Shown: piece by piece, positions 370 to 13,682 of the stretch
How the letters are laid out: every line of letters begins with the position of its first letter
Numbering within the stretch: the first letter of the stretch is position 1
Assembly: GCA_003697085.1 (NCBI GenBank)
Contig: RFFU01000072.1
Coordinates: forward strand, 1 to 13,682
Reading direction: 5' to 3'
From: Candidatus Hydrogenedentota bacterium
Lineage (GTDB): Bacteria > UBA8481 > J006
DNA length: 13,682 nt
Position numbers and translations under genes: made by a program
The notes under the pieces: generated by a model
Database searches by the model: none
Told to the model about the DNA's origin: nothing
The model's input: the letters and a program-made list of their open reading frames with translations, nothing else

Positions 370-1194
370 TCAGCGTCGGCCGTCGTACCAGATGGGGAGC
401 GCATTTCGGTCGCGCATTGAACGTCGCGGCCGAAACCAAAGAGGCAGTAGGGTCAGGAAAATTTCGGGAAGGGAATAGAGCGCGGCCTTTCGTGCGGAAG
501 TGACGGCGGTTTCCTTGAGGATGATGAAGCGCCTTCCTTCCGTTCGACCGACTTTCTTGAGGTCACGGGAGAGAATGATTTCCTCGGCAACGAAGTATTC
601 TTCTTTGAAACCGCCGATTTTCCGAAAGGAGTCCGTCCGGCAGAAGAGAAAGGCGCCGGCCGCGACCCGGAAGGTTCGGGAAATCCACCACCAGACGAAA
701 ACGGGAATGCGAACGCGGTAGGCTCTGGGATCATCGGTGACGATGTGACAGCCGCCTCCAACGACGGCGCCGGATTCAAGCGCCCGCACGGCTTTCCAAA
801 CTGTCTTCTCGGAGGGAAGGGTATCGGCGTCGACGAAGAAGAGGAAACGCCCCGAGGCAACGGCGGCTCCCGCGTTTCGCGCCGCCGCGATCTGCCGGCG
901 ATTTATGTGAACCACCTGCGCTCCCGTGTTTCCGGCGATTTCCGCCGTCGAATCGGAAGAGCCGTCGTCGACGACAATCACTTCGGCCTCACGACTTCTT
1001 TCACGCAATCGGCGGCGGATATCTTGGATATTCCGAAGTGTGCTCGGAAGAAGTTTCTCCTCATTGTGTGCGGGAATGACGAAACTCAATGTAACGGTTT
1101 TCTTGCTCATTGTGGGGAGACGATACCAAAGGAAGAATAATTCCACAATTTCGGAGAGATCGAGACGGTCATCTTCGTTTCGGAAGGAGGCCAT
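370..1194 (-). CDS. Family 2 glycosyltransferase (GT-A fold)
   Basis: It probably moves a sugar from an activated nucleotide-sugar donor onto a lipid or glycan acceptor at the cytoplasmic face of the membrane. Visible GT2 signatures are VIPAHNEE near the start, VVDDGSSDST (donor-binding acidic pair), ARNAGA, the DxD-type VDADT that binds the metal, and AEEIILSRDLKKVGR where family members carry the ED catalytic-base region. The end, LPIWYDGRR, also fits this GT2 group. There is no membrane domain apart from a hydrophobic patch near the C-terminus. Start choice: the ATG at 1194 has GGAG seven bases upstream, whereas the internal ATG at 1110 starts MSKKTVTLSFVIPA exactly where the family usually begins but has no ribosome site. 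Both are possible. The acceptor is unknown. It is transcribed away from the toroid protein gene, so a shared divergent promoter region at 1195-1350 is possible. Confidence 0.93.
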   Translation of the reverse strand: MASFRNEDDRLDLSEIVELFFLWYRLPTMSKKTVTLSFVIPAHNEEKLLPSTLRNIQDIRRRLRERSREAEVIVVDDGSSDSTAEIAGNTGAQVVHINRRQIAAARNAGAAVASGRFLFFVDADTLPSEKTVWKAVRALESGAVVGGGCHIVTDDPRAYRVRIPVFVWWWISRTFRVAAGAFLFCRTDSFRKIGGFKEEYFVAEEIILSRDLKKVGRTEGRRFIILKETAVTSARKAALYSLPEIFLTLLPLWFRPRRSMRDRNALPIWYDGRR

Positions 1195-1201
1195 CGGGGG
1201 T

Positions 1202-1205
1202 CTCC
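1202..1205 (-). promoter_or_regulatory. Ribosome binding site deciding the glycosyltransferase start
   Basis: On the minus strand GGAG is followed by seven bases and then ATG at 1194. The competing ATG at 1110 has no purine-rich site, so this favours the longer form, with 28 extra residues before the usual family start. Confidence 0.45.
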
Positions 1206-1350
1206 GAGAGGCGATGACCTCGGAATGGTTGTTGCGCGGAGGGATGTCTTCACGCTTTCACGGGTCCCGGTATTGAAGGCGGGCGGCGGGAACGAAGACT
1301 TGACCTTTCGTTATCCGATGCGAAGATGAAGCGGGAAAGGAGAAGAGGCG

Positions 1351-2955
1351 ATGCGGGCGAGGAATCCGTTTCTCGAGGTCAGTCGTATGGGGTTGCGGCG
1401 CCTGTTGGGGCTGGCCTGCCGGAATCCCTTGTCGCGCCATTTCGGCTCTTTTGCGCGGGATTTCTGGCATTACCGGGCCGTAACGGATTTTCCCTCGGCA
1501 ACGTACCAGCAAGGAGTCCTGCCGTTGGCTTTGGCTTACGCGAACAGACTCTTCGGAAAGGAATATTATCGAAACGATCGGATTCGGAAGTTAGCGGTGG
1601 GAGGGGTTCGGCGTTGGGTGGAGATTCAGCATTCGGATGGTTCCTTCGACGAATGGTATCCACAGGAGCACAGTCACGTAGCGACGGCCTTCACGAGTTA
1701 CGCGGTTTCGGAGGCCGTCCGGATATTGGGAATTTCCGAGGAGGCCGTGATTCGGGCCTTGGAACGAGCGGGAGCGTGGTTGGGTCGGAAGATCGATCGG
1801 GATGTCGCGAACCACACGGCGGGCGCGGTGGCCGCGCTGTGGAATATCGCGGAATTGACGGGGAGTGAGACGGTCCGGAAGGCATATAACCGAAACGTCG
1901 AAGCGATGGGGGATCTCCAATCGGAGGAGGGCTGGTTTCCGGAGAACGGATCGTTTGATATCGGATACCTTTCGGTGAGCCTCCATTATTTGGCGAAGGC
2001 GTATGACCGCAGCGGAGACGAGCGGATTCGAAGGATGGTGGAGCGGGGAGCGGAGTTTCTCGACTTCTTCGTGGCTCCGGACGGAGCCGTTCCATCGGAG
2101 ATTGGAAACAGAAACACGCAGTATTTGATGCCGGCGGGGATTCTGCTTGCTGCCCGATATTCGGAGGCGGCGCGTCGTCTTCGCCGGCGTTTTCTCGAGG
2201 GACTCGAAGCCGGCCGCGTGGTCGGTCCCACGGAGGCGGATGACCGTTATTTTACTTTTTTCTTTCTTCCAAATTTTATGCAAGCGGCCGTTCTTTATTC
2301 GGAGAACCCGCCGGTCGGAGTCGAGGAGGAGGAGAAGACGGGTGGGGGGCTTTACGGTGTTCGGGATTTTCCACGAGCGCGGGCGCTTGTTTCCCGGGTT
2401 CAGTCTCGGACACTGTTTCTCAATTACGGCAAGGGCGGGGTCTTTCGGCTCTACCGCGGGCCGAAACTCGTCGGGCGTGATGCCGGTTATTTCGCGCGTC
2501 TCGAGGACGGAAGGCTTCTGACGACGGCCCTGCTGGCCGAGAGTGAGGAAGTGAGGAAGATTACAGCGACCGAATTCTTAATCGAGACGCCTTTCAAATT
2601 CGTGGACGACACGGTGCCCGCGGAGCGGTTTCTCGTTCCGTTTCGTTTCTTCAGCGCGACGGCGGGGAGGGTGCCCGGCGTGATGCCGCGTTTTAATGAA
2701 TGGGTGAAAGAGAGATACATCCGGGCGCGAAAGCCGGGGCCGCTGCGGCTTAAACGGTGTATTACGTTGCTGGATTCAGGGGGGATTCGCGTGGAAGATG
2801 AGGTGACGGTCGAATCGGGTGTGAAAGCGGAGCTGATTCGTGCGACGTCCACGTCGGCAATGCATGTTCCCAGTTCGCGGTATGCCGCCACGGAGGACTT
2901 TCTCTTCGAGGAGGAGCCGGTGGAATCCGGAAAAAGTGTCCGGGTGATTGAGTAA
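1351..2955 (+). CDS. Putative carbohydrate-active protein, alpha/alpha-toroid plus beta-sandwich
   Basis: 534 residues; I recognise no named family. Residues about 45-310 are a run of amphipathic helices with the landmark GSFDEWYPQEHSH (97-109), then repeated motifs of the kind HYLAKAYDRSGDERI. This is the pattern of helical toroids in heparinase II/III-like polysaccharide lyases and cyclase-like proteins. Residues about 340-534 are beta-rich (RTLFLNYGKGGVFRLYRG and on), as in the C-terminal sandwich of heparinase-like lyases. The clustered His, Tyr, Trp and acidic residues around 100-109 could be an active site. No signal peptide is seen, which is odd for a polysaccharide-degrading enzyme and would suit a cytoplasmic or biosynthetic role. 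AGGAG lies 8 bases before the ATG. It is divergent from a glycosyltransferase, so a polysaccharide role is likely; the exact reaction is unknown. Confidence 0.85.
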   Translation: MRARNPFLEVSRMGLRRLLGLACRNPLSRHFGSFARDFWHYRAVTDFPSATYQQGVLPLALAYANRLFGKEYYRNDRIRKLAVGGVRRWVEIQHSDGSFDEWYPQEHSHVATAFTSYAVSEAVRILGISEEAVIRALERAGAWLGRKIDRDVANHTAGAVAALWNIAELTGSETVRKAYNRNVEAMGDLQSEEGWFPENGSFDIGYLSVSLHYLAKAYDRSGDERIRRMVERGAEFLDFFVAPDGAVPSEIGNRNTQYLMPAGILLAARYSEAARRLRRRFLEGLEAGRVVGPTEADDRYFTFFFLPNFMQAAVLYSENPPVGVEEEEKTGGGLYGVRDFPRARALVSRVQSRTLFLNYGKGGVFRLYRGPKLVGRDAGYFARLEDGRLLTTALLAESEEVRKITATEFLIETPFKFVDDTVPAERFLVPFRFFSATAGRVPGVMPRFNEWVKERYIRARKPGPLRLKRCITLLDSGGIRVEDEVTVESGVKAELIRATSTSAMHVPSSRYAATEDFLFEEEPVESGKSVRVIE

Positions 2956-3097
2956 GAAGCCGAGCGGGTTGTCTTGGACGTCCGAGGAAAAAGAATGCGA
3001 GGCGAGCCGGCCGGTTCTGGAATGACGCGTTCGCCCTCGGCGGCACGCGGAAATCGGAGATCGGGACGGTGGCAGCGGCGGCGGCGGATTGTGATTA

Positions 3098-4297
3098 TTA
3101 TTGAGCCATAATGTTTTCCGGTCTGATGAGGTAACTCCGTTCGATTTCGTGGAATCGGAGGGGGGTCCATGTTCCATCGTCTCTTCGAGTTCGCGAGAAA
3201 ATGGCGAAAAAGACCCGGTGGTCTCCGTTGGGCTGTTCAACGGCGACCGCTGCCTCCAGAAAACCGGCGTAACCTACGAGAAGGTCGTCACCATGCCATT
3301 CTGCGATCCAACTCTCGTCGAATTTCTCGCTCTGGATCGAAACCCTTTTGACCTTTTCCCCCTTAAAGGCCTCTTCGTAGGCTTTGGCAATCTGGCGGGC
3401 GAGTTTGTCGCGATGACCTCCCCGCCAACGTTCGACGGGCACGCGATTCGCGTCGATTTCCTTGTTCATCAGTTCTTCGGCGCGAGCGTTCTCGGTATCG
3501 CGCTTCTTGGTCAATTCCGAGATCTTGGTTCTCAACCCGGCGATTCGGTCGTCCGTATCCGTAAAGGTGCCGTCATCGATCTTTTTCAACACATCCAAGC
3601 CCCGATTGACATCGGCCAGGGCCCGCCAGATATCGCTCGCCGTCGAGGACTCAGCGGCCTTCGCGAGCCCCTTTTCGACATCCTTTGTGGTTTCAGGAAC
3701 GACACGTTGGGTCGCATGCTGATACGCGACGGCCGGTCCGAAGACAATATGGTAAAGGGCCGGCGTAATCTGTTCCACCAGATGAATCTTCTGGAAGAGC
3801 GTGGGATCAGAGATAACGGTCGTGGGAGGAGGAAATGAACTTGCCATCGCCGCCGCCTCCTTCCACGTCGCGTCGCGCAGGCCCAAAATCTGGGCGATTC
3901 TTTCTCGATAGTCCCAGACACCGTTTGGGAGGTTGTTCTCCGTGTCGAAGAGGCGGGCGAGTTCCATCATCCGCGACTTTTTCGTCTTCCAAACGGCAAA
4001 GAGGCGTTCCGCGCCGGCATCGGCTTTCGGCCAGAGTTGTTCTTCGAGATTTTTATAGCGCAAAACAAGGCCTCCGAGTTGGGGGTTGCCTGCGTAGGGG
4101 AGAAACGGTTGTATGAGACCCGCCGCCGCCCAAAGAACCATCCGAGCCTTGCTTTCATCCTCTTTGGAGGCCTCCTCGGCCGCTTGAGTAGCGGCCTGGA
4201 TATATTGAATCTTTTGCTGCGGGGTCAGATCAATCGCTCGAGCGGGTCCGAGGAAGAATAGAAGTAGGACAATTGAGAAAACCTTCGAGAATTTCAT
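3098..4297 (-). CDS. Secreted protein of unknown function, 399 residues
   Basis: I do not recognise the family. The N-terminus is a textbook Sec signal peptide: MKFSK, a hydrophobic core VFSIVLLLFFLG, then PARA with cleavage likely after residue 21 (before IDLTPQQ). The mature part is mostly helical and charged; the stretch from about VPETTKDVEKGL to AEELMNKEIDANR could form coiled coil. The last 120 or so residues look mixed alpha/beta (ESWIAEWHGDDLLVGYAGFL, then a long beta-like run to the end). There is no lipobox Cys and no membrane anchor, so a periplasmic or secreted soluble protein is expected. The open frame extends upstream to an ATG at 4345, but the strong AAGGAGGG before 4297, the signal peptide and the promoter position all fix the start at 4297. 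It converges with the toroid protein gene, whose stop is 142 bases away. Confidence 0.86.
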   Translation of the reverse strand: MKFSKVFSIVLLLFFLGPARAIDLTPQQKIQYIQAATQAAEEASKEDESKARMVLWAAAGLIQPFLPYAGNPQLGGLVLRYKNLEEQLWPKADAGAERLFAVWKTKKSRMMELARLFDTENNLPNGVWDYRERIAQILGLRDATWKEAAAMASSFPPPTTVISDPTLFQKIHLVEQITPALYHIVFGPAVAYQHATQRVVPETTKDVEKGLAKAAESSTASDIWRALADVNRGLDVLKKIDDGTFTDTDDRIAGLRTKISELTKKRDTENARAEELMNKEIDANRVPVERWRGGHRDKLARQIAKAYEEAFKGEKVKRVSIQSEKFDESWIAEWHGDDLLVGYAGFLEAAVAVEQPNGDHRVFFAIFSRTRRDDGTWTPLRFHEIERSYLIRPENIMAQ

Positions 4298-4302
4298 AAT
4301 CA

Positions 4303-4308
4303 CCCTCC
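4303..4308 (-). promoter_or_regulatory. Strong ribosome binding site of the secreted protein
   Basis: On the minus strand this is GGAGGG inside AAGGAGGGTGATTATG, five bases before the ATG at 4297. It is the best Shine-Dalgarno match in the window and rules out the upstream in-frame ATG at 4345. Confidence 0.85.
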
Positions 4309-4316
4309 TTTCCTTC

Positions 4317-4345
4317 TTCATAAAGCAAAGATTCGATAATGTCAA
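4317..4345 (-). promoter_or_regulatory. Sigma-70-type promoter of the secreted protein gene
   Basis: On the minus strand there is a perfect -35 TTGACA (4340-4345), a 17-base spacer and a -10 TATGAA (4317-4322, four of six consensus bases). The start of transcription would fall near 4310, just before the ribosome binding site, giving a leader of about 13 bases. The upstream in-frame ATG at 4345 lies at the -35, so it would not be in the transcript. Confidence 0.65.
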
Positions 4346-4928
4346 TTCGAGGGCGTGCCTGAATCCCAGAAGAAGATTTCACCACGAGAGTGCACGAGAG
4401 ATCACAAGAGAAGAAAACAGAGTAGGAATAAAGAAAAAGCGGAATTTAGGAGGGATTTGACTCGAAGACGGGACAGACGGGAAGTTCACCTTTCACCTGA
4501 TGGGGAAAGCCTTCTTTGAGAAAAAGCGGCCTTCCTTCTCCTTCCTTGCCTCTCGTGCTCTCAGTGAACTCTTGTGGTGAGCGGACGTCCGGGGAACAAG
4601 GTGTGAAAAAATAGGGGGCCGTAGGTACGGTTCGAAGGGGGGGAGAAACCGGGCAACCGATCCCTTCTACCCCTTCCCATGGGCCGGTCGCTGCTACCGC
4701 TTCGGCTGCGATGGCTCACACTATACCTGTGCATTTCTAGGAACGCCTTGAGAAGTTCTTTTCTAACGACCGCAATTATTATACTCTCCTGCCGTGCGGA
4801 GAGGATCTGGATTTCGTGGCAAGGGAGGCTCTCGAACTGTCAAAACGGTCTGTTGGCGGATGCGGAAGCCGCCCAAAAAAATAGAATGATGTTCGCCAGT
4901 GTCTTCCGGGGACAGGCACATTAATGCT
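4346..4928. other. Long intergenic gap with repeats
   Basis: About 580 bases between the secreted protein promoter and the sulfatase-like gene with no convincing gene. An open frame at 4679-4924 could encode 81 residues, but it has no ribosome site and resembles no known protein. The gap holds the inverted-repeat element at 4379-4580. A TATACT box at 4780-4785 could be a -10 for the sulfatase-like gene with a leader of about 140 bases, but no good -35 accompanies it. GGCGG/CCGCC at about 4855-4874 followed by seven A is a hairpin, but its T-run is on the wrong side to be a terminator for either strand. Confidence 0.6.
4379..4580. repeat. Inverted-repeat-bounded element of about 200 bases (same family as 49-77)
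   Basis: The left arm starts TCACCACGAGAGTGCACGAG (4379-4398). The right arm (4549-4580), read on the minus strand, starts TCACCACAAGAGTTCACTGA and goes on GAGCACGAGAGG. Eleven of the first twelve bases match and the CACGAGAG core recurs. Inside, GGAATAAAGAAAAAG (4425-4439) is identical to 63-77. No open frame of useful length lies between the arms, so this is not an insertion sequence with its own transposase. It could be a non-autonomous mobile element or two inverted copies of a dispersed repeat. Confidence 0.55.
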
Positions 4929-6797
4929 ATGCCGCCGGCCATGAGGGAAGGGAACCGTACGGGCGTAATTATCACAGGAGTCTATACCTTTTTCCTGCTT
5001 TTTCTCGGGGAATGGTATTCTTTTGGGGCGAAAACCTCCACCTTCTCCCTACCGCTTCTCTTCTTTTATGTTTTCAGCGGGGCTGTTGTCGGAGTTATCA
5101 CGCTGGTCATCCGCAACGAATGCCTTCGGACGGCGTTTCTTGCCGGCTGTGTCACGTTTTTGCTTGGTACAGTTTCTCTCTATCGACTTACGGGAATGCC
5201 TCCTTTTTCCCGGGGCGGCCTCGAATCATATTCTGCGGTTTTCGGTGTCGCGATGGTCATCGCCTTTTTTATTTTTTCTGGAAACCGATTTCTCAAACGG
5301 CGTTTCCATCAGGACGTTTCCATTCTCATTGGCACGGCTTTCATACCAGTTCTTCCTTCTTTCGTGAATAACATTCAAGAGGCACTGATGATGCGTGCCG
5401 GAAATCCTTCTTTCCTGCTCGAACCATCAACAGCACTTTGGATCCTGGCGCCGTTCGGTGTGACAATTCTGCTTTGTGGAATCGCCTGTCGTCTTGGGGA
5501 CGTCGTTCCGGCAACAGCTTGCATCCTTTTCGTCTTTCTTCTAGTGTTACTTTTCCGTTTTGATGGCGCCGCCGAAGTGTTCCCGAGGGCGGCATCGGAT
5601 AGTGCGCCCAATGTCCTTCTTGTAGTAGCGGATTCTCTTCGCGCGGACCATACGGAGATTGAAGGAACATGCTTTCGAAATACAACTCCGACGTTGCTTC
5701 ATCTTGCCGACAGCGCGTTGGTTTTCCGAAGGTGTCTTGCTGCCTCTCCTGTGAGCGAAATCTCCATTCCTTCCATCTTGACCGGGCTTCTTCCCCCCGA
5801 ACACGGAATTATTGAGCCGGGGAGCCGTCTACGGGAACCCGCATCGTCCCTTCCCGGGCATTTCCGAAGGATGGGCTATCGAACGGGTTATCTCTTGTGG
5901 GAGCGCCGCTATCGAATCGCCGGTTTGGCGGAGACTGTGTTCGATAAAAGAATGAATGCTCCCCCGGTTCGTTCTTTTCTCGGTGCGGCTTCCGATCAGT
6001 GGGCGCTGGGCTATCTCTTTGCTGCAATGACCGGCAATATCTTTTCTCCGCACTTTCTCTCGTCCGGAGAAACGGATCGCTTGCTCCTTGAACAAATTCT
6101 TTCATTTGTCCGCGAGGACTCTGAACGACCTTTTTTTCTCTATTTCCACGACCTGCGGCTCCATATTCCGATCATCGCCTATCCCGAAAGCGGGCCAGTA
6201 TGGAGTCGGCCTCTTGATCACAATTCTTACTGGGATTTTTGGGAGGTCTGGACAGAGGCTGTTCACGGGCGGCGTTCTCCGAAAACAGGTCACGTTCTGA
6301 AAGATTTCCGGGACCGCTACGACGATGCCGTGTTGTCTTTCGATATCTTTCTCCGTAAACTTCTCGACGGTCTTCACCATAGCGGTAACAGAAGAAGAAC
6401 GCTAGTCATCGTTACCGCTGATCACGGTGAGCCTCTCGGAGACGAAGGGGTGATCTGTCGATCGGTCGATCAACCCGAATTGGGTGCGGTTTGGGTGCCC
6501 TTGGTCGTTTACGACCCCGTTTTAAAAGAAAGAAGAGACATTTACCAGCCGGTAACCTCGGCAGATATTGCGGCCATCATTATGAACCGGCTGTATAACA
6601 CTCCGCTTCCGTCACACAACGCTGTCGCAGGGGGGATCCCCCCTGCCCTATACGGCGGTGATGGTCGGACGTTCATTCGCAGGACACAAAATGGGTTTCG
6701 AATCACCGGTTGGGGAACGGCTCGGGGCGAAACGGGTTCGATCGCGGTAATCCGACACGCATTAGGTGAATATTCGCGAAAATTCTCTTCGTTGTAA
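4929..6797 (+). CDS. Membrane-bound sulfatase/phosphotransferase-like protein (alkaline phosphatase superfamily)
   Basis: About 622 residues. The first 215 or so contain some seven hydrophobic segments (for example VIITGVYTFFLLFLG, LLFFYVFSGAVVGVITLVI, ATACILFVFLLVLLFRF). The rest is a sulfatase-like domain, probably outside the cytoplasmic membrane. Metal-binding landmarks are present: VVADSLRADH (Asp235) and TADHGEPLGDEG (Asp498, His499). The nucleophile loop is unusual: VSEISIPSILTG (275-286) stands where Cys/Ser-x-Pro-x-Arg is expected, so Ser276 or Ser279 replaces Cys, and the Arg is missing. That argues against a formylglycine sulfatase and for a phospho-group transferase, as in LTA-synthase or phosphoethanolamine-transferase relatives, or a decayed site. 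The usual His after the DHG block (GH...VP) is not seen in GVICRSVDQPELGAVWVP. Start uncertain: GTG 4899, ATG 4929 and ATG 4941 are in frame and none has a good ribosome site. An SGNH esterase gene follows 356 bases later. Confidence 0.9.
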   Translation: MPPAMREGNRTGVIITGVYTFFLLFLGEWYSFGAKTSTFSLPLLFFYVFSGAVVGVITLVIRNECLRTAFLAGCVTFLLGTVSLYRLTGMPPFSRGGLESYSAVFGVAMVIAFFIFSGNRFLKRRFHQDVSILIGTAFIPVLPSFVNNIQEALMMRAGNPSFLLEPSTALWILAPFGVTILLCGIACRLGDVVPATACILFVFLLVLLFRFDGAAEVFPRAASDSAPNVLLVVADSLRADHTEIEGTCFRNTTPTLLHLADSALVFRRCLAASPVSEISIPSILTGLLPPEHGIIEPGSRLREPASSLPGHFRRMGYRTGYLLWERRYRIAGLAETVFDKRMNAPPVRSFLGAASDQWALGYLFAAMTGNIFSPHFLSSGETDRLLLEQILSFVREDSERPFFLYFHDLRLHIPIIAYPESGPVWSRPLDHNSYWDFWEVWTEAVHGRRSPKTGHVLKDFRDRYDDAVLSFDIFLRKLLDGLHHSGNRRRTLVIVTADHGEPLGDEGVICRSVDQPELGAVWVPLVVYDPVLKERRDIYQPVTSADIAAIIMNRLYNTPLPSHNAVAGGIPPALYGGDGRTFIRRTQNGFRITGWGTARGETGSIAVIRHALGEYSRKFSSL

Positions 6798-7153
6798 CTG
6801 CGCGTCCTCGATTATGCGATTGTGGATGGTTGAATGACGATTCCCGTTATCTGCCCGGATTTCGGAATGACGTCTTCAGAAGAAATCTGTTTTCAAAGCG
6901 CCTCTGTTCTTGTTGCAAAAAACCAGTATCCTGCTCCGACCATGCTTCATTAATGGCGGTCGCATTTGTAAGTCCTGTTATGTTCTGCTGTCGGCAGGAG
7001 GTGTGTGTTGTCATTAAAATACGAAGTCTTCGGCGGGAAAGGGTGTTGATCCGAAACTTTCGGTCGTTATCTCGTTTTCGTAACGGTAAAATAGGGTTAT
7101 GACCGATTTTCCGATTGGAACCAGTCGATGAGTCGTGCCTTTCGGATTGTTCA
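6798..7153. other. Intergenic gap before the SGNH gene
   Basis: No convincing gene. A 90-codon frame at 6830-7102 needs a TTG start and has no ribosome site or recognisable features. TAAAAT at 7087-7092 lies six bases before an ATG at 7099 that opens a ten-codon frame ending at 7131, but there is no -35 match. AGGAGG at about 6996-7001 is not followed by a useful open frame. The length suggests that the SGNH gene may have its own promoter rather than depend on the sulfatase-like gene. Confidence 0.5.
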
Positions 7154-8239
7154 ATGACGGGGAAAGTTCGCGCTTCGACCGGCTCCTCCGGAAGAATTCT
7201 CAAACGGTTCCTTCTTCTGGTAGTCTCTACCTGTCTCGTTCTTCTTGCCGGAGAAGCGGCCCTCCGTCTCAGTGGGTATGGCTTTATTTGGGTCCCGTGC
7301 TCGGGCTTCCTCGTTCCGTCTTCTCAACAGGGCGTTGGATATGAGCCCCTTCCGTTCTTCAGTGGATTTTATGCCGGTGCCTATGTTCAGACGAACGAAC
7401 TGGGATTGCGCGATACCCAGGATCCTCGAACCTACCGGCGCCCCCGGATCCTTCTCCTGGGAGATTCGGTTCTCTTCGGCTTCGGTGTGCCGAACGAGCA
7501 AACCCTGGCGGCGCACCTGGAACGTCTCTTGCGAAAAAAGTATGGAAAGCCGTTCGAGGTCCTGAATGCCGGAGTGAACGGCTACCACATCGCCCAGGAG
7601 GCGGCCTTCGGGGACCGCTTCGTCCGACTTTTGAACCCCGACACCGTCGTCTTTATCGTCATTCCCAACGATGTGGACGGCCGGGAACTCTACGCCGATG
7701 CTTACGGTGACTTGCGGGACAGCGGTGTTCCGCCGCCGCCGAACCCTTGTTCCCCACAAACGCTTTTCGACAAGACGACTTTCTTTCTCAAGAAGCACTC
7801 CCAACTCTTCAACGCGATCCGCGTCAGCTATATTCGCTGGAAGGTCCTGCGCTCTCCGTGGGATAAACGGCTCGCCACGATTTACCCTCCCGGATTTCAC
7901 TATTCCGACAGCGATTGGAACCAATGGCGCGATCGCGTGAAGCGAACCGTCGCGGTGATCGATAAATGGAATCTCCCGACGGCGTTCTTCGTGGTCAGCA
8001 CCGACTTTCCCAGCCGTGAGGCGCTGGCGGCAGTCGTCCGCTCGCTCGAGGAAACCGGTTATCCCGTTTGGAATTCGGAATCGGACCTGGGAATCGTCAA
8101 CGAGAGGACGGCGCCTCCAGAAATCCTCTCGACCCGCCTCTGGTGGGATATACACCCGGACGGTCGCGGTCAGGAACTCATTGCCCGTTCGCTGTTTAAT
8201 CACCTGTGCGGCGAAAAAATTCGTGCTCCAATGCAGTGA
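7154..8239 (+). CDS. Membrane-anchored SGNH-fold hydrolase/acyltransferase-like protein
   Basis: 361 residues. One N-terminal membrane anchor (about 17-36, FLLLVVSTCLVLLAG) follows a positively charged start, so the catalytic domain should lie outside the membrane. SGNH blocks are in order: LLLGDSVLFGFG (nucleophile Ser105), NAGVNGYH (Gly140/Asn142), VIPNDVDG (Asn172) and WWDIHPDGRG (Asp332, His334). The last block is D-x-H rather than the usual D-x-x-H; if Asp332 is not the catalytic acid the site may be a dyad. Proteins of this kind often remove or add acetyl groups on surface glycans, so a role in envelope polysaccharide modification together with the preceding sulfatase-like gene is plausible but unproved. 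Start: a TTG at 7115 is in frame, but the ATG at 7154 gives a normal anchor; neither has a ribosome site. Downstream is a convergent gene whose stop is 200 bases away. Confidence 0.91.
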   Translation: MTGKVRASTGSSGRILKRFLLLVVSTCLVLLAGEAALRLSGYGFIWVPCSGFLVPSSQQGVGYEPLPFFSGFYAGAYVQTNELGLRDTQDPRTYRRPRILLLGDSVLFGFGVPNEQTLAAHLERLLRKKYGKPFEVLNAGVNGYHIAQEAAFGDRFVRLLNPDTVVFIVIPNDVDGRELYADAYGDLRDSGVPPPPNPCSPQTLFDKTTFFLKKHSQLFNAIRVSYIRWKVLRSPWDKRLATIYPPGFHYSDSDWNQWRDRVKRTVAVIDKWNLPTAFFVVSTDFPSREALAAVVRSLEETGYPVWNSESDLGIVNERTAPPEILSTRLWWDIHPDGRGQELIARSLFNHLCGEKIRAPMQ

Positions 8240-9206: not shown

Positions 9207-12101
9207 GTGAATTTAACCCCACACCAAACCCGCTACTACGCCTTCGACATCACACGGCGCGGACGGAAGGATCTCGATCGTCTTTCCCAGACCCTCTTCG
9301 AGGCTTCCGTGGATCTCAATCCGCACCAGATCGAGGCGGCGCTTTTCGCGCTCCGCTCACCGCTGTCGAAAGGCGCAATCCTCTGCGATGAAGTCGGGCT
9401 CGGGAAGACCATCGAGGCCGGGATCGTGCTCTGTCAGTTCTGGGCCGAACGGAAGCGCCGGTTGCTGGTGCTTTGCCCCGCATCCCTGAGGAAGCAGTGG
9501 GCTCTGGAACTCGAGGAAAAGTTTCATCTTCCGACACTGATTCTCGACGCCCGATCCATGCGCGAAGCCCAGCGAAATGCGAAAGATCCGTTTCGGGAAC
9601 CCGCCATCCTCATTATGTCCTATCAATACGCCCATCGCGTCCGGGATCGCATTCGCTCCGTCGGCTGGGATCTCGTCGTCATCGACGAAGCCCACAAACT
9701 CCGCAACGCCTATCGGCCCAGCAATGTCCTGGGCCAAAGCGTCCGCTGGGCAACCGAGGACTGCCGCAAACTCCTTTTGACAGCGACCCCGCTTCAGAAT
9801 TCGCTCCTCGAACTGTACGGTCTCTCGACCATCATCGATGACCGGATTTTCGGAGACATCAAAGCCTTTCGTTCGCAGTTCATGGGCACAGGGGCCGATC
9901 TCGGCGAACTGCGGCGCCGATTGGCGCCGATCGCGAAACGCACTCTTCGAAACCAGGTTACCGAGTACATCCGCTACACCGAGCGTCGCGCCATAACTCA
10001 GCCCTTCCATCCTTCGGACGACGAAGAGGCCTTTTACCGCGCGGTGGCCGACTTTCTTGAACGCGAGGATTCCTACGCCATTCCGACACGGCAGAAGCAC
10101 CTGACAAAACTGATTCTCTACAAACTTCTGGCCTCCTCCACGCCGGCCATTGTTGCCACCCTCGAGATGATCCGCGCGCGACTGGATCGCCTGGCGAAAG
10201 AGCGCGACAGGGAAGCGACGGAAAGGGATTTCGTCGAAAAGATCGTTCTCGACGAGGAACTGGAACCGGATCTCCTCGACGAGATTCTGGAAGAGGACGG
10301 AATGGATCAATCCGCCGATGAGAGAGAGCCCCCTCCCTCCCAAGAGACACTCGATCGCCGACGATTGGAAGCCGAAATTGCGGAGTTGGACCGCCTGATT
10401 GCCTGGGCCGGTCGTCTTGGGAAGGACACCAAGACGACCGCTCTTTTGACGGCTCTTTCCGCAGGCTTTGAACAAATGCGGACTCTGGGTGCGGCCGAAA
10501 AGGCGCTCATCTTTACGGAATCCCGGAAGACCCAGGACTACCTGAAACAGTTTCTCGAATCGAACGGCTACCAGGGGAAGGTGGTTGTCTTCAACGGATC
10601 GAACAGCGGACCCGAAGCCACCGCCATCTACGAAGCTTGGAAGACGAAGGCCGAGGCTGAAGGACGGAGCACCGGTACCAGAGCAATTGACGTCCGGACG
10701 GCGCTCATCGAACATTTTCGCGACGAGGCCTCCATCATGATTGCAACCGAAGCCGGCGCTGAGGGCGTCAATCTTCAGTTCTGCTCACTCGTCATCAACT
10801 ACGACCTGCCCTGGAATCCTCAACGGGTCGAACAACGGATCGGCCGTTGTCACAGGTACGGCCAGAAGTACGACGTCGTCGTCATCAATTTTCTGAACGA
10901 ACGAAACCACGCGGACCGAAGAATCCTGGAACTTCTGAGCGAAAAGTTCCGTCTCTTCTCGGGAATCTTCGGCGCGTCGGACGAGATACTCGGCGCAATC
11001 GAGTCGGGTCTCGATTTCGAGCGGAGGATTCTGGAAATCTACTCGAAATGCCGCACCGGCGAAGAGATCGACGCGGCCTTCGCGGCGCTTCAAAAGGAAC
11101 TCGAGGAATCCATCCGGGCACGCATGGACAAAACCCGCCGCGAACTTCTCGAACACTTCGACGAGGATGTCCATGAACGACTGCGGCTCCGACTGGAAGA
11201 TGCCAAAACCCGCCTCGATCGCTTCGGAAAGCGTTTCTGGCTGGTGACCCGCTTTGTTCTCGAGGACCGGGCCGATTTCAACGAGGAATCGCTGTCTTTC
11301 ACGCTTCGGGATCCTCCGATCCAGGGCGTGGCGCCGGGAAACTACCATCTGATTCACGAGGGTCCAGCCGATCGAAAAAAATCGGATCGTTTTCTCTACC
11401 GCCTGTCGCATCCGCTCGGCGAATGGGTGGTCGAGACCGCAAAGGCGCTCGATACCCCCTGTATGGAGATCGCCTTCGAGATCACGAACCACCCGACGAA
11501 GGTGAGCGTCGTCGAGGCGCTGAAAGGCAGATCGGGCTGGCTTACGCTCGAGCGGCTGCTGATCCGGTCGTACGAGGACGAGGAGTACCTTCTCTTCACG
11601 GGCATAACCGAGAACGGCGAGACGATCGATCAGGAAACACTGGAGAAGATGCTCGGCGTTTCGGGATGTGTCTCTGGCGCCGTGGAGATCCCGCCGGAAG
11701 TTCTCGAGCGGCTTCAGGCCGAGGCCGCGCGTCGTCGCGCCGCAACGATCAGCCGATCACTCGAGGAGAACAACAGGCACTTCCAGGAGGCGCGCGAGCG
11801 CTTGGAGAAGTGGGCCGACGACATGGTTCTCGCGGCCGAAAAGGCTCTACGGGACACGAAAGAGGAAATCAAGGTTCTCCGGCGCGAAGCCCGGCGCGCG
11901 GAGTCGCTTGAAGAGCAGAAGAACATTCAGGAAAAGATGCGCATCCTCGAACGAAAGATGCGCCGTCAGCGGAAGGAGATCTTCCGCGTCGAGGACAAAA
12001 TCGCTGAGAAACGCGACGAACTCATCGAGGAACTCGAGAAGCGTCTCTCGAGCGGTACAGAACACGAAGAGATCTTCACGATCCGCTGGAGGGTGGTGTG
12101 A
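9207..12101 (+). CDS. SNF2-family helicase/ATPase of a DNA-modification (probable defence) locus
   Basis: 964 residues, complete. It is an ATP-driven double-strand DNA translocase of the SNF2/RapA-like superfamily 2. Motifs: DEVGLGKT (Lys67, Walker A), DEAH (160-163), LLLTATP (189-195), IATEAGAEGVNLQ (motif V, from about 512) and QRIGRCHRYGQ (motif VI, 543-553, with the arginine finger). Between the two RecA lobes is an acidic insert (about 345-385, LDEELEPDLLDEILEEDG) and a helical linker. Residues about 580-830 are of unknown fold, and about 840-955 form a long, highly charged coiled coil. No nuclease motif is seen, so a cutting activity must come from another protein, if there is one. The GTG start gives MNLTPHQTRYYAFDITRRG, which matches the usual start of this family as I recall it. 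It is followed by a Mod-type methyltransferase; the pair recurs, to my memory, in type III-like restriction loci. DISARM DrmD is also a SNF2 helicase, but no other DISARM gene is visible. Confidence 0.96.
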   Translation: MNLTPHQTRYYAFDITRRGRKDLDRLSQTLFEASVDLNPHQIEAALFALRSPLSKGAILCDEVGLGKTIEAGIVLCQFWAERKRRLLVLCPASLRKQWALELEEKFHLPTLILDARSMREAQRNAKDPFREPAILIMSYQYAHRVRDRIRSVGWDLVVIDEAHKLRNAYRPSNVLGQSVRWATEDCRKLLLTATPLQNSLLELYGLSTIIDDRIFGDIKAFRSQFMGTGADLGELRRRLAPIAKRTLRNQVTEYIRYTERRAITQPFHPSDDEEAFYRAVADFLEREDSYAIPTRQKHLTKLILYKLLASSTPAIVATLEMIRARLDRLAKERDREATERDFVEKIVLDEELEPDLLDEILEEDGMDQSADEREPPPSQETLDRRRLEAEIAELDRLIAWAGRLGKDTKTTALLTALSAGFEQMRTLGAAEKALIFTESRKTQDYLKQFLESNGYQGKVVVFNGSNSGPEATAIYEAWKTKAEAEGRSTGTRAIDVRTALIEHFRDEASIMIATEAGAEGVNLQFCSLVINYDLPWNPQRVEQRIGRCHRYGQKYDVVVINFLNERNHADRRILELLSEKFRLFSGIFGASDEILGAIESGLDFERRILEIYSKCRTGEEIDAAFAALQKELEESIRARMDKTRRELLEHFDEDVHERLRLRLEDAKTRLDRFGKRFWLVTRFVLEDRADFNEESLSFTLRDPPIQGVAPGNYHLIHEGPADRKKSDRFLYRLSHPLGEWVVETAKALDTPCMEIAFEITNHPTKVSVVEALKGRSGWLTLERLLIRSYEDEEYLLFTGITENGETIDQETLEKMLGVSGCVSGAVEIPPEVLERLQAEAARRRAATISRSLEENNRHFQEARERLEKWADDMVLAAEKALRDTKEEIKVLRREARRAESLEEQKNIQEKMRILERKMRRQRKEIFRVEDKIAEKRDELIEELEKRLSSGTEHEEIFTIRWRVV

Positions 12102-12109
12102 GGGCGACG

Positions 12110-12175
12110 ATGTCGTGCGGGACAGTTCCTGGATTAGCGGATAAACTTCCCCACCGGAGGGAACGGGAACGATGA
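12110..12175 (+). CDS. Possible 21-codon ORF overlapping the methyltransferase start
   Basis: It fills the gap between helicase and methyltransferase: the ATG is eight bases after the helicase stop, AGGG lies five bases before it, and the stop overlaps the methyltransferase start as ATGA (12172-12175). Its product, beginning MSCGTVPGLADKL and ending in Arg/Glu repeats, resembles nothing known. Its likely role, if translated, is to carry ribosomes from the helicase to the methyltransferase start by re-initiation, not to make a functional peptide. It could be chance. Confidence 0.3.
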   Translation: MSCGTVPGLADKLPHRRERER

Positions 12176-13682
12176 CGAACCCAAGATTTGAAAAACTCAA
12201 AGGCCTGCTGAAGACGCTATTTCAGCTCGACCGGCCGGATCTCGATTTCGGGCTTTACCGGATTATGCATGCGCGAAGCGCCGAGATCACGAAGTTTCTC
12301 GACGAGGACCTGCTGCCGCAGGTGAACGAGTCGTTCGCCGAACTCGAGGCGACCTCGGCCGAGGAGGTCCGCCGCGAACTAGAGGAGATGGAAAAAGAAG
12401 CCGCCGAACTCGGTTTCGATTCGCCCGAGGCCATCCCGAAGTACAAGGACCGTTACCCGGCGCTCAAGCGGCAACTAGAATCGGCCTTCGACCGCGCCGC
12501 GGCCGAGGGCGAGGTCTTCGACCACCTCTTCCGGTTCTTCCGGCGCTACTACCACGAAGGCGACTTCATCAGCCGCCGGGTCTACAAGGAGGGCGTTTAC
12601 GCGATTCCCTACGAGGGCGAGGAGGTCAAACTCTACTGGGCGAACCACGACCAGTACTACATCAAGACCAGCGAATACCTGCGGGACTACGCCTTCTGCC
12701 TGCGGCCCGGCGACGAGAAGAACCCGATGCGGGTCCATTTCCGGATCAAAGACGCCGCCGAGGGGGAGCACGGCAATGTCAAGGAATCGCAGAAACGCGT
12801 CTTCGTCCCGGCCGCGGATAACCTCGTAGCGATCGAAGACGACCAACTTATCTGCCGTTTCGAGTACCGGCCCGCCACGCTCGAGGACTGGCCGGAGGAG
12901 GTACGCAACGGCAAAACCAAGCCGCCCGACCAGAAGGCGCTCAACGAGATCGCCGAGAAGCGCATCATCGACGCGATGCAGAAGGGCAAGACGGCGAAGG
13001 TGTTCGTCGAATGGTTGTCCGAACTCGGGAAGCCGTATGTGAAAGCGAACGGCGAGACGGCCGACTACACACGCCTTCGCGCCCACATCAACCGGTACAC
13101 CGCCCGCAACACTTTCGACTATTTCATCCACAAAGACCTGGGTGGTTTTCTGCGCCGCGAACTCGACTTCTACATCAAGAACGAGGTGATGCACCTCGAC
13201 GACATCGAGAAGACGACGCCCGAGCGACTCGACCAGTTGCTGGCGAAGATCAAGGTCATCCGGAAGATCGCCGGAAAGATCATCGCCTTTCTCGAACAAC
13301 TCGAGAACTTCCAGAAAAAGTTATGGCTCAAGAAGAAGTTCGTGGTCGAGACCTTCTGGTGCGTGACGCTGAAGACGATACTCGATATCGAGGACGAGAA
13401 GGAGCGCAAGTGGCTCTTGAAGCAAATCGCCGCGAACGACGCGCAGCGCGAGGAGTGGCTGCGGCTTTATGCGATCGACGAGCAGACCGGCAAGGGCGAC
13501 CTCTTCACGGTGGCGTATTCGGAGCTGCTCACGGTCGAGTTTCTCGAAGCCAACCCGACGCTCGTCGTGGACACGCGCCATTTCGACGACGAGTTCACCG
13601 CGCGCCTGCTCGACGCGATCGACGGCCTGGACGAGAAGACCGACGGCCTGCTCGTCCACAGCGAAAACTTCCAGGCGCTGAA
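12172..13682 (+). CDS. DNA adenine methyltransferase, type III Mod-like, N-terminal part (cut by window end)
   Basis: 503 codons are visible with no stop; the gene runs off the window. The start MTNPRFEKLKGLLKTLFQLDRPDLDFGLYRIM and blocks such as YYIKTSEYLRDYAF, RNTFDYFIHKDLGGFLRREL and LVHSENFQAL match, in my memory, a family of about 900-1,000-residue site-specific adenine methyltransferases in which a roughly 500-residue N-terminal module precedes the catalytic domain. The DPPYN catalytic and FxG AdoMet motifs are expected within about 30 codons after the window edge and are not visible here, so activity is inferred. GGAGG (12156-12160) lies eleven bases before the ATG. Codons end in G or C far more often than in the sulfatase-like gene, suggesting a different origin. 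It probably methylates adenine in a short asymmetric site and works with the helicase. Confidence 0.9.
   Translation, partial: MTNPRFEKLKGLLKTLFQLDRPDLDFGLYRIMHARSAEITKFLDEDLLPQVNESFAELEATSAEEVRRELEEMEKEAAELGFDSPEAIPKYKDRYPALKRQLESAFDRAAAEGEVFDHLFRFFRRYYHEGDFISRRVYKEGVYAIPYEGEEVKLYWANHDQYYIKTSEYLRDYAFCLRPGDEKNPMRVHFRIKDAAEGEHGNVKESQKRVFVPAADNLVAIEDDQLICRFEYRPATLEDWPEEVRNGKTKPPDQKALNEIAEKRIIDAMQKGKTAKVFVEWLSELGKPYVKANGETADYTRLRAHINRYTARNTFDYFIHKDLGGFLRRELDFYIKNEVMHLDDIEKTTPERLDQLLAKIKVIRKIAGKIIAFLEQLENFQKKLWLKKKFVVETFWCVTLKTILDIEDEKERKWLLKQIAANDAQREEWLRLYAIDEQTGKGDLFTVAYSELLTVEFLEANPTLVVDTRHFDDEFTARLLDAIDGLDEKTDGLLVHSENFQAL

Follow-up and report, generated by a model that had tools for sequence, protein, structure and literature searches.

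An SNF2-family motor gene beside a truncated mod gene: the probable 5' part of an Eco86II-like Type III restriction–modification locus in a Candidatus Hydrogenedentota bacterium

The window analysed here, a stretch of 13,682 nucleotides from a Candidatus Hydrogenedentota bacterium, is the entire contig C104 (RFFU01000072.1), belonging to a 3.2-Mb draft genome that comprises 145 contigs and is 94.6% complete. Two genes lie at its 3' end on the forward strand. The first (9207–12101) encodes a complete SNF2/RapA-like ATPase of 964 amino acids, with a GTG start and helicase motifs I to VI intact. A gap of 70 bases (12102–12171), which is too small to hold a cargo gene and carries GGAG 16 bases 5' of the Mod start, separates it from the N-terminal part of a Type III Mod of the long kind (12172–13682, 503 amino acids), whose reading frame (12172–13680) is still open at the window end. 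A preliminary description of this DNA had given this layout, a complete SNF2 frame followed after 70 bases by an open Mod frame, and the layout is real. Because the window is the whole of contig C104, the truncation of Mod reflects where the assembly breaks, not where the window was placed. The region upstream (370–8239) holds non-defence genes, encoding a family 2 glycosyltransferase, a weakly pectate-lyase-like protein, a sulfatase-family membrane protein and a GDSL-like protein.

The product of the first gene looks like an intact, nuclease-free, RapA-like motor, as had been proposed for it. Pfam recognises SNF2-rel_dom (114 bits) and Helicase_C (71 bits), and the full set of helicase motifs is present: DEVGLGKT at residue 61, DEAH at 160, TATPLQN at 192, ATEAGAEGVNLQ at 513 and QRIGRCHRYGQ at 543. 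A pattern search of residues 600–964 returned no PD-(D/E)XK pattern. RapA is the best full-length structural match of the model of this protein (mean pLDDT 84.6, pTM 0.77), with 716 residues aligned, and is the only structure to match it over its full length, other SNF2 structures matching the motor core only; RapA is also the top match by sequence. Two long helices (residues 830–947) stand before the last strand in the model, an arrangement common to BrxHII of Type-3 BREX and RapA (PMC12839542). The likeness to E. coli RapA (PDB 6bog, 8so8 and 8spg) thus extends over the Swi2/Snf2 core and the C-terminal half, with about 716 model residues aligned, whereas the N-terminal 120 residues of RapA have no counterpart, the alignment starting after them, and identity is around 17–20%. 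The partners also differ, being, as far as known, a restriction–modification system for the window protein and RNA polymerase for RapA. An identification as RapA itself was rejected, as the score of 165 bits compares with a RapA equivalog cut-off of 576. A profile search of the window's genome gave only one strong match to this SNF2 family, and phage records contained no full-length relative of the protein.

The second gene was identified as a Type III mod, in agreement with the preliminary description, because the fragment is 36–65% identical to complete Mods over their N-terminal halves, the methyltransferase domain itself lying beyond the window. Pfam finds no domain in the 503 residues; PADLOC matches them to MTase_III (PDLC03646) with 312 bits, covering the first 483 of 1057 profile positions. 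The full-length relatives are long Mods of about 980–1150 amino acids. In an alignment with them, the final residues of the window, DGLLVHSENFQAL, fall just ahead of the DPPY motif, so that the fragment stops some 25 residues upstream of Mod motif IV (DPPY/F), which is present in 30/30 complete relatives. A profile search detected a single long Mod in the window's genome. The structure model of the long Mod is of low confidence (pTM 0.46) and matches EcoP15I and other Mods in its catalytic half only, not in the N-terminal part of about 450 residues.

Whether homologues of the two genes tend to be neighbours, a check that had been suggested for this locus, was addressed in two samples, and they do. 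In the first, of 386 genomes chosen irrespective of the question, the SNF2 family occurs in 14 and the long Mod family in 18, and both occur together in 8 genomes against 0.65 expected (hypergeometric P = 1e-8). All eight double carriers have the two genes on one contig, a few kilobases apart. A ninth case (L075, 5311–8137, genome G080) has an SNF2 gene split in two frames beside a long Mod–Res pair; an intact Mod–Res may stand there beside a motor that has lost its function, unless the split is a sequencing error. In the second sample, the SNF2 alignment was scanned against 84,980 species genomes and 80 loci were returned. Where the sequence extends 6 kb or more past the SNF2 gene, a Type III-like Mod lies near it in 51/55 loci; where 8 kb or more are available downstream, 46/49 Mod-bearing loci also have a Res. 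Loci with both Mod and Res come from at least 12 phyla, and the order and orientation snf2–mod–res are conserved across them. The extra motor is thus a steady partner of Type III systems in a dozen phyla. The catalytic motifs are likewise retained, in SNF2 at 30/30 complete loci, as is Mod motif IV, and in nearly all Res. A long Mod beside a window-family SNF2 and a Res was also found on plasmids of Hymenobacter, Blastomonas, Aeromonas, Klebsiella and Conchiformibius. The SNF2 family is not exclusive to Type III systems, since some relatives adjoin other methyltransferases: one stands beside an Eco57I/MmeI-like protein and a UvrD helicase (L068, 2856–11665) and another beside a split N6 methyltransferase (L072, 9706–16227).

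The Mod and Res proteins of these loci fall into two main lineages, the long one, to which the window belongs, and a short one with Mods of about 510–650 and Res of about 900 amino acids; the assignment is loose for a few weakly scoring Mods. On the SNF2 tree the window protein belongs to a supported clade with 12 members; a long Mod accompanies 11 of these, and the other is truncated at its contig end. The labels long and short are strongly clustered on this tree, yet several switches are seen, and the extra motor has moved between the two Mod–Res lineages. Pairwise distances are correlated for SNF2 and Mod (r = 0.60), SNF2 and Res (0.73), and Mod and Res (0.88), correlations in which co-inheritance and host descent are not separated. 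The nearest locus by SNF2 (63% identity) comes from a Pirellulaceae bacterium (JAGFJK010000088.1, L082), and is a cargo-free locus of snf2, long mod and res, with 59% identity in the Mod fragment and 52% in the Res fragment; it differs in being complete and in belonging to another organism, of the Planctomycetota.

An arrangement of this kind has been described. Of the six m4C Type III systems that Murray et al. 2021 (PMC8259958) characterised, two, BspHIV and Eco86II, possess a further gene directly 5' of mod. Its product is helicase-like, has no nuclease motif, is not homologous to Res and was assigned no role; the genomes in which the gene adjoins mod and res number more than 500 (PMC8259958). 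The Eco86II locus was found in the E. coli NCTC86 record NZ_CP019778.1, where it encodes an SNF2-related protein, a Mod of 1040 amino acids and a Res. The window SNF2 is 53% identical to its Eco86II counterpart over the full length, and the Mod fragment is 36% identical to the Eco86II Mod over 519 columns; on these grounds the locus belongs to the already described Eco86II kind. The window gene is likewise a nuclease-free, helicase-like ATPase that is not a Res homologue and lies on the same strand 70 bases 5' of mod. We conclude that the locus is probably the 5' part of an Eco86II-kind three-gene Type III restriction–modification system, snf2–mod–res, a reading to which we give a probability of roughly 0.88 from sequence comparison. 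The window shares with Eco86II (E. coli NCTC86, target GAGCC, m4C) the gene order and the Mod N-terminal region, and its genome encodes a Res from the same family; the host lineage differs. Mod is merely 36% identical in the part compared, and the target site may well differ. The window Mod may be an m4C or an m6A enzyme, the two being indistinguishable with the catalytic half missing, and its relatives may be either. The suggestion that this was an under-described system holds only in part: the trio was described in 2021 in Eco86II and BspHIV, and what is left undescribed is the function of the motor. The identity of the pair is thereby settled, and a link is made to Eco86II, an enzyme that has been characterised.

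The third member of the proposed trio is probably represented elsewhere in the assembly. The window's genome has one strong match to the Res-family profile (E = 1e-54), on the forward strand at bases 10–480 of contig C3, which starts inside the gene; the match covers the final 160 positions of the profile. Res proteins of this family have a GSGKT Walker A motif, a DEGH box and, near the C-terminus, a PDF...(D/E)P(K/H) motif. The C3 fragment comprises the C-terminal 163 amino acids and contains PDFILWLVTGDYQTIIFVDPK, the nuclease motif in intact form (PDFILW...FVDPK). Its nearest relatives come largely from the same loci as those of Mod and SNF2, and the relatives of the Res and Mod fragments rank in near-identical order (Spearman 0.83). 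The simplest reading is that C104 continues into C3 across a gap of about 4.4–4.8 kb, which would hold the remainder of Mod and the greater part of Res. This linkage is inferred, since the assembly lacks the stretch of about 4.4–4.8 kb that would connect residue 503 of Mod with the Res fragment; the Mod catalytic half and the Res motor half would both fall within it. When a continuation was sought through shared contig ends, the last 1511 bases of C104 had no second match in the genome. Two other contigs were discarded as candidates: C81 starts at base 12 with an HsdR-like gene, unrelated to the Mod and Res of this family, and the Type III pair on C59 is of a different, shorter lineage. That second pair (L014, 6576–11322) consists of a Mod of 857 and a Res of 748 amino acids. 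The HsdR-like Type I protein on C81 (L013, 12–3629) has, as judged by eye, an apparent C-terminal S24/LexA-like peptidase region in frame. On C3 itself, some 5 kb past the Res fragment, a solitary N6/N4 methyltransferase is encoded (L174, 5971–7431), to which profile segments match in permuted order.

Type III restriction–modification systems cleave DNA that enters the cell without the host's methylation pattern. Their target, a short asymmetric site, is bound by a dimer of Mod, which modifies just one of the strands, at N4 of cytosine or N6 of adenine. At unmethylated sites, ATP hydrolysis sets Mod2Res sliding on the DNA, and cleavage by the Res nuclease follows an encounter between two such complexes. 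By the same scheme, the Mod dimer of the present system would mark one strand of its asymmetric site, an unmarked site would release Mod2Res to slide after ATP hydrolysis, and Res would cut where two complexes meet. The SNF2 protein would work alongside this core enzyme as a RapA-like double-strand DNA translocase, and may clear protein roadblocks or stalled Mod2Res from the protein-covered DNA in the cell. We infer this clearing function tentatively, as the likeliest task for such a motor but at rather less than even odds. For Eco86II-type enzymes, methylation is carried out by Mod alone, the extra protein being dispensable, and a partly purified Eco86II preparation that cleaved DNA contained no peptide of the extra ATPase (PMC8259958). 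A role for SNF2 as a helper or regulator of restriction in the cell is suggested because Mod methylates without the protein and, in vitro, partial cleavage apparently does not require it either. Such a role fits better than that of a core subunit, given that the gene, dispensable in vitro, is yet conserved in genomes. With Eco86II as a natural system, E. coli offers a host in which the motor's function can be tested.

The same findings could be taken to mean that snf2 hitchhikes, or that it is a defence gene in its own right, located in the same island as an ordinary Type III system. Its dispensability for methylation and the absence of its product from the cleaving preparation are compatible with this, as is the fact that about half of the related long Mod–Res pairs have no snf2. 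We nevertheless consider it unlikely, since Mod is near in 51/55 SNF2 loci, order and orientation are conserved across phyla, and SNF2 distances correlate with those of Mod and Res.

A different role for the motor is brought to mind by the other defence genes that the operon often houses. Genes are present between snf2 and mod in 36/63 Mod-bearing loci (27/36 with a short Mod, 6/21 with a long Mod), and between mod and res in 12/51. In the cases examined (L082–L161), these two slots contain Abi_2, AIPR/AbiU, SoFic, Schlafen AlbA, an SMC-like ATPase and a HEC-01A-like ATPase with DUF4276, and further RhuM/PDC-S05, a KAP NTPase, an HTH + M78 peptidase protein, a DUF4143 ATPase, GmrSD and a YhcG nuclease. 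The cargo is thus of defence type, in many cases abortive, and its members are mutually unrelated. The HTH + M78 (IrrE-like) peptidase protein, a type of regulator found on mobile elements, was seen between snf2 and mod at three loci (L066, 6570–7688; L063, 11557–12669; L155, 9558–10652). With effectors such as Abi_2, AIPR/AbiU, SoFic, GmrSD and YhcG in these positions, SNF2 might be a sensor or coupler that links the failure of restriction by Mod–Res, as a first line, to an abortive cargo effector as a second. This too seems improbable: in 15/21 long-Mod loci, as in the window, mod follows snf2 without any cargo, and unrelated cargo genes would fit a passive insertion hotspot equally well. 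Still more speculative is the broader idea that snf2–mod–res is a general scaffold for two-layer immunity, in which SNF2 would sense or signal whatever gets past Mod–Res and would trigger interchangeable abortive effectors from the two slots. Were it true, the window locus would represent a form without cargo, at any rate in the slot that separates snf2 from mod.

Two further readings would change the nature of the locus, as opposed to the role of its motor. The preliminary description had offered a choice between a Res downstream of Mod, giving a system with an extra motor, and a pair that acts without cutting. The former is what the relatives display, and the Res C-terminus on C3 agrees with it. 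That the pair provides methylation and a motor only is very improbable: the window itself holds no nuclease, but the Res end that opens C3 of the same genome has an intact nuclease motif, and Res follows in 46/49 relatives.

The remaining alternative, that a DISARM, BREX or Hma (DUF499) locus has been cut by the contig end, with SNF2 as DrmD, BrxHII or HmaA, can be dismissed as highly improbable, for although PADLOC ranks DrmD first for SNF2 (656 bits) and also lists BrxHI/HII and HmaA, the score against NCBIfam DrmD_b is 663 bits, under the cut-off of 950, and the SNF2 partner is a Type III Mod, with Res next in relatives. A search of the 94.6% complete genome for a DrmB-type protein (PF09369, DUF1998/MZB) gave no match, which, with the sub-cut-off DrmD score, rules out DISARM. 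DrmD of DISARM, BrxHII of BREX, HmaA of the DUF499/Hma systems and ArmA of ARMADA are, like the window protein, SNF2/RapA-like motors beside DNA methyltransferases in defence loci. Their methyltransferases, however, are of other types, and their partners are DrmAB, PglZ, DUF499 or YprA, none of which is known at the window locus.

The resemblance between these motors also touches on automatic annotation. The PADLOC DrmD model PDLC02619 gives the window SNF2 family more than 600 bits, so that some loci called as DISARM by automatic annotation could in fact be Type III systems. A RefSeq 'mads1' label is likewise attached to a 66-residue, excisionase-like HTH gene before snf2 at two loci (L165, 11814–12014; L027, 6232–6432), with a score of 83.5 against a cut-off of 80. 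MADS (methylation-associated defence) was rejected there, the other genes at the 'mads1' locus encoding an Abi protein and the Mod and Res of a Type III system, and the label at such a Type III plus Abi locus is possibly misleading.
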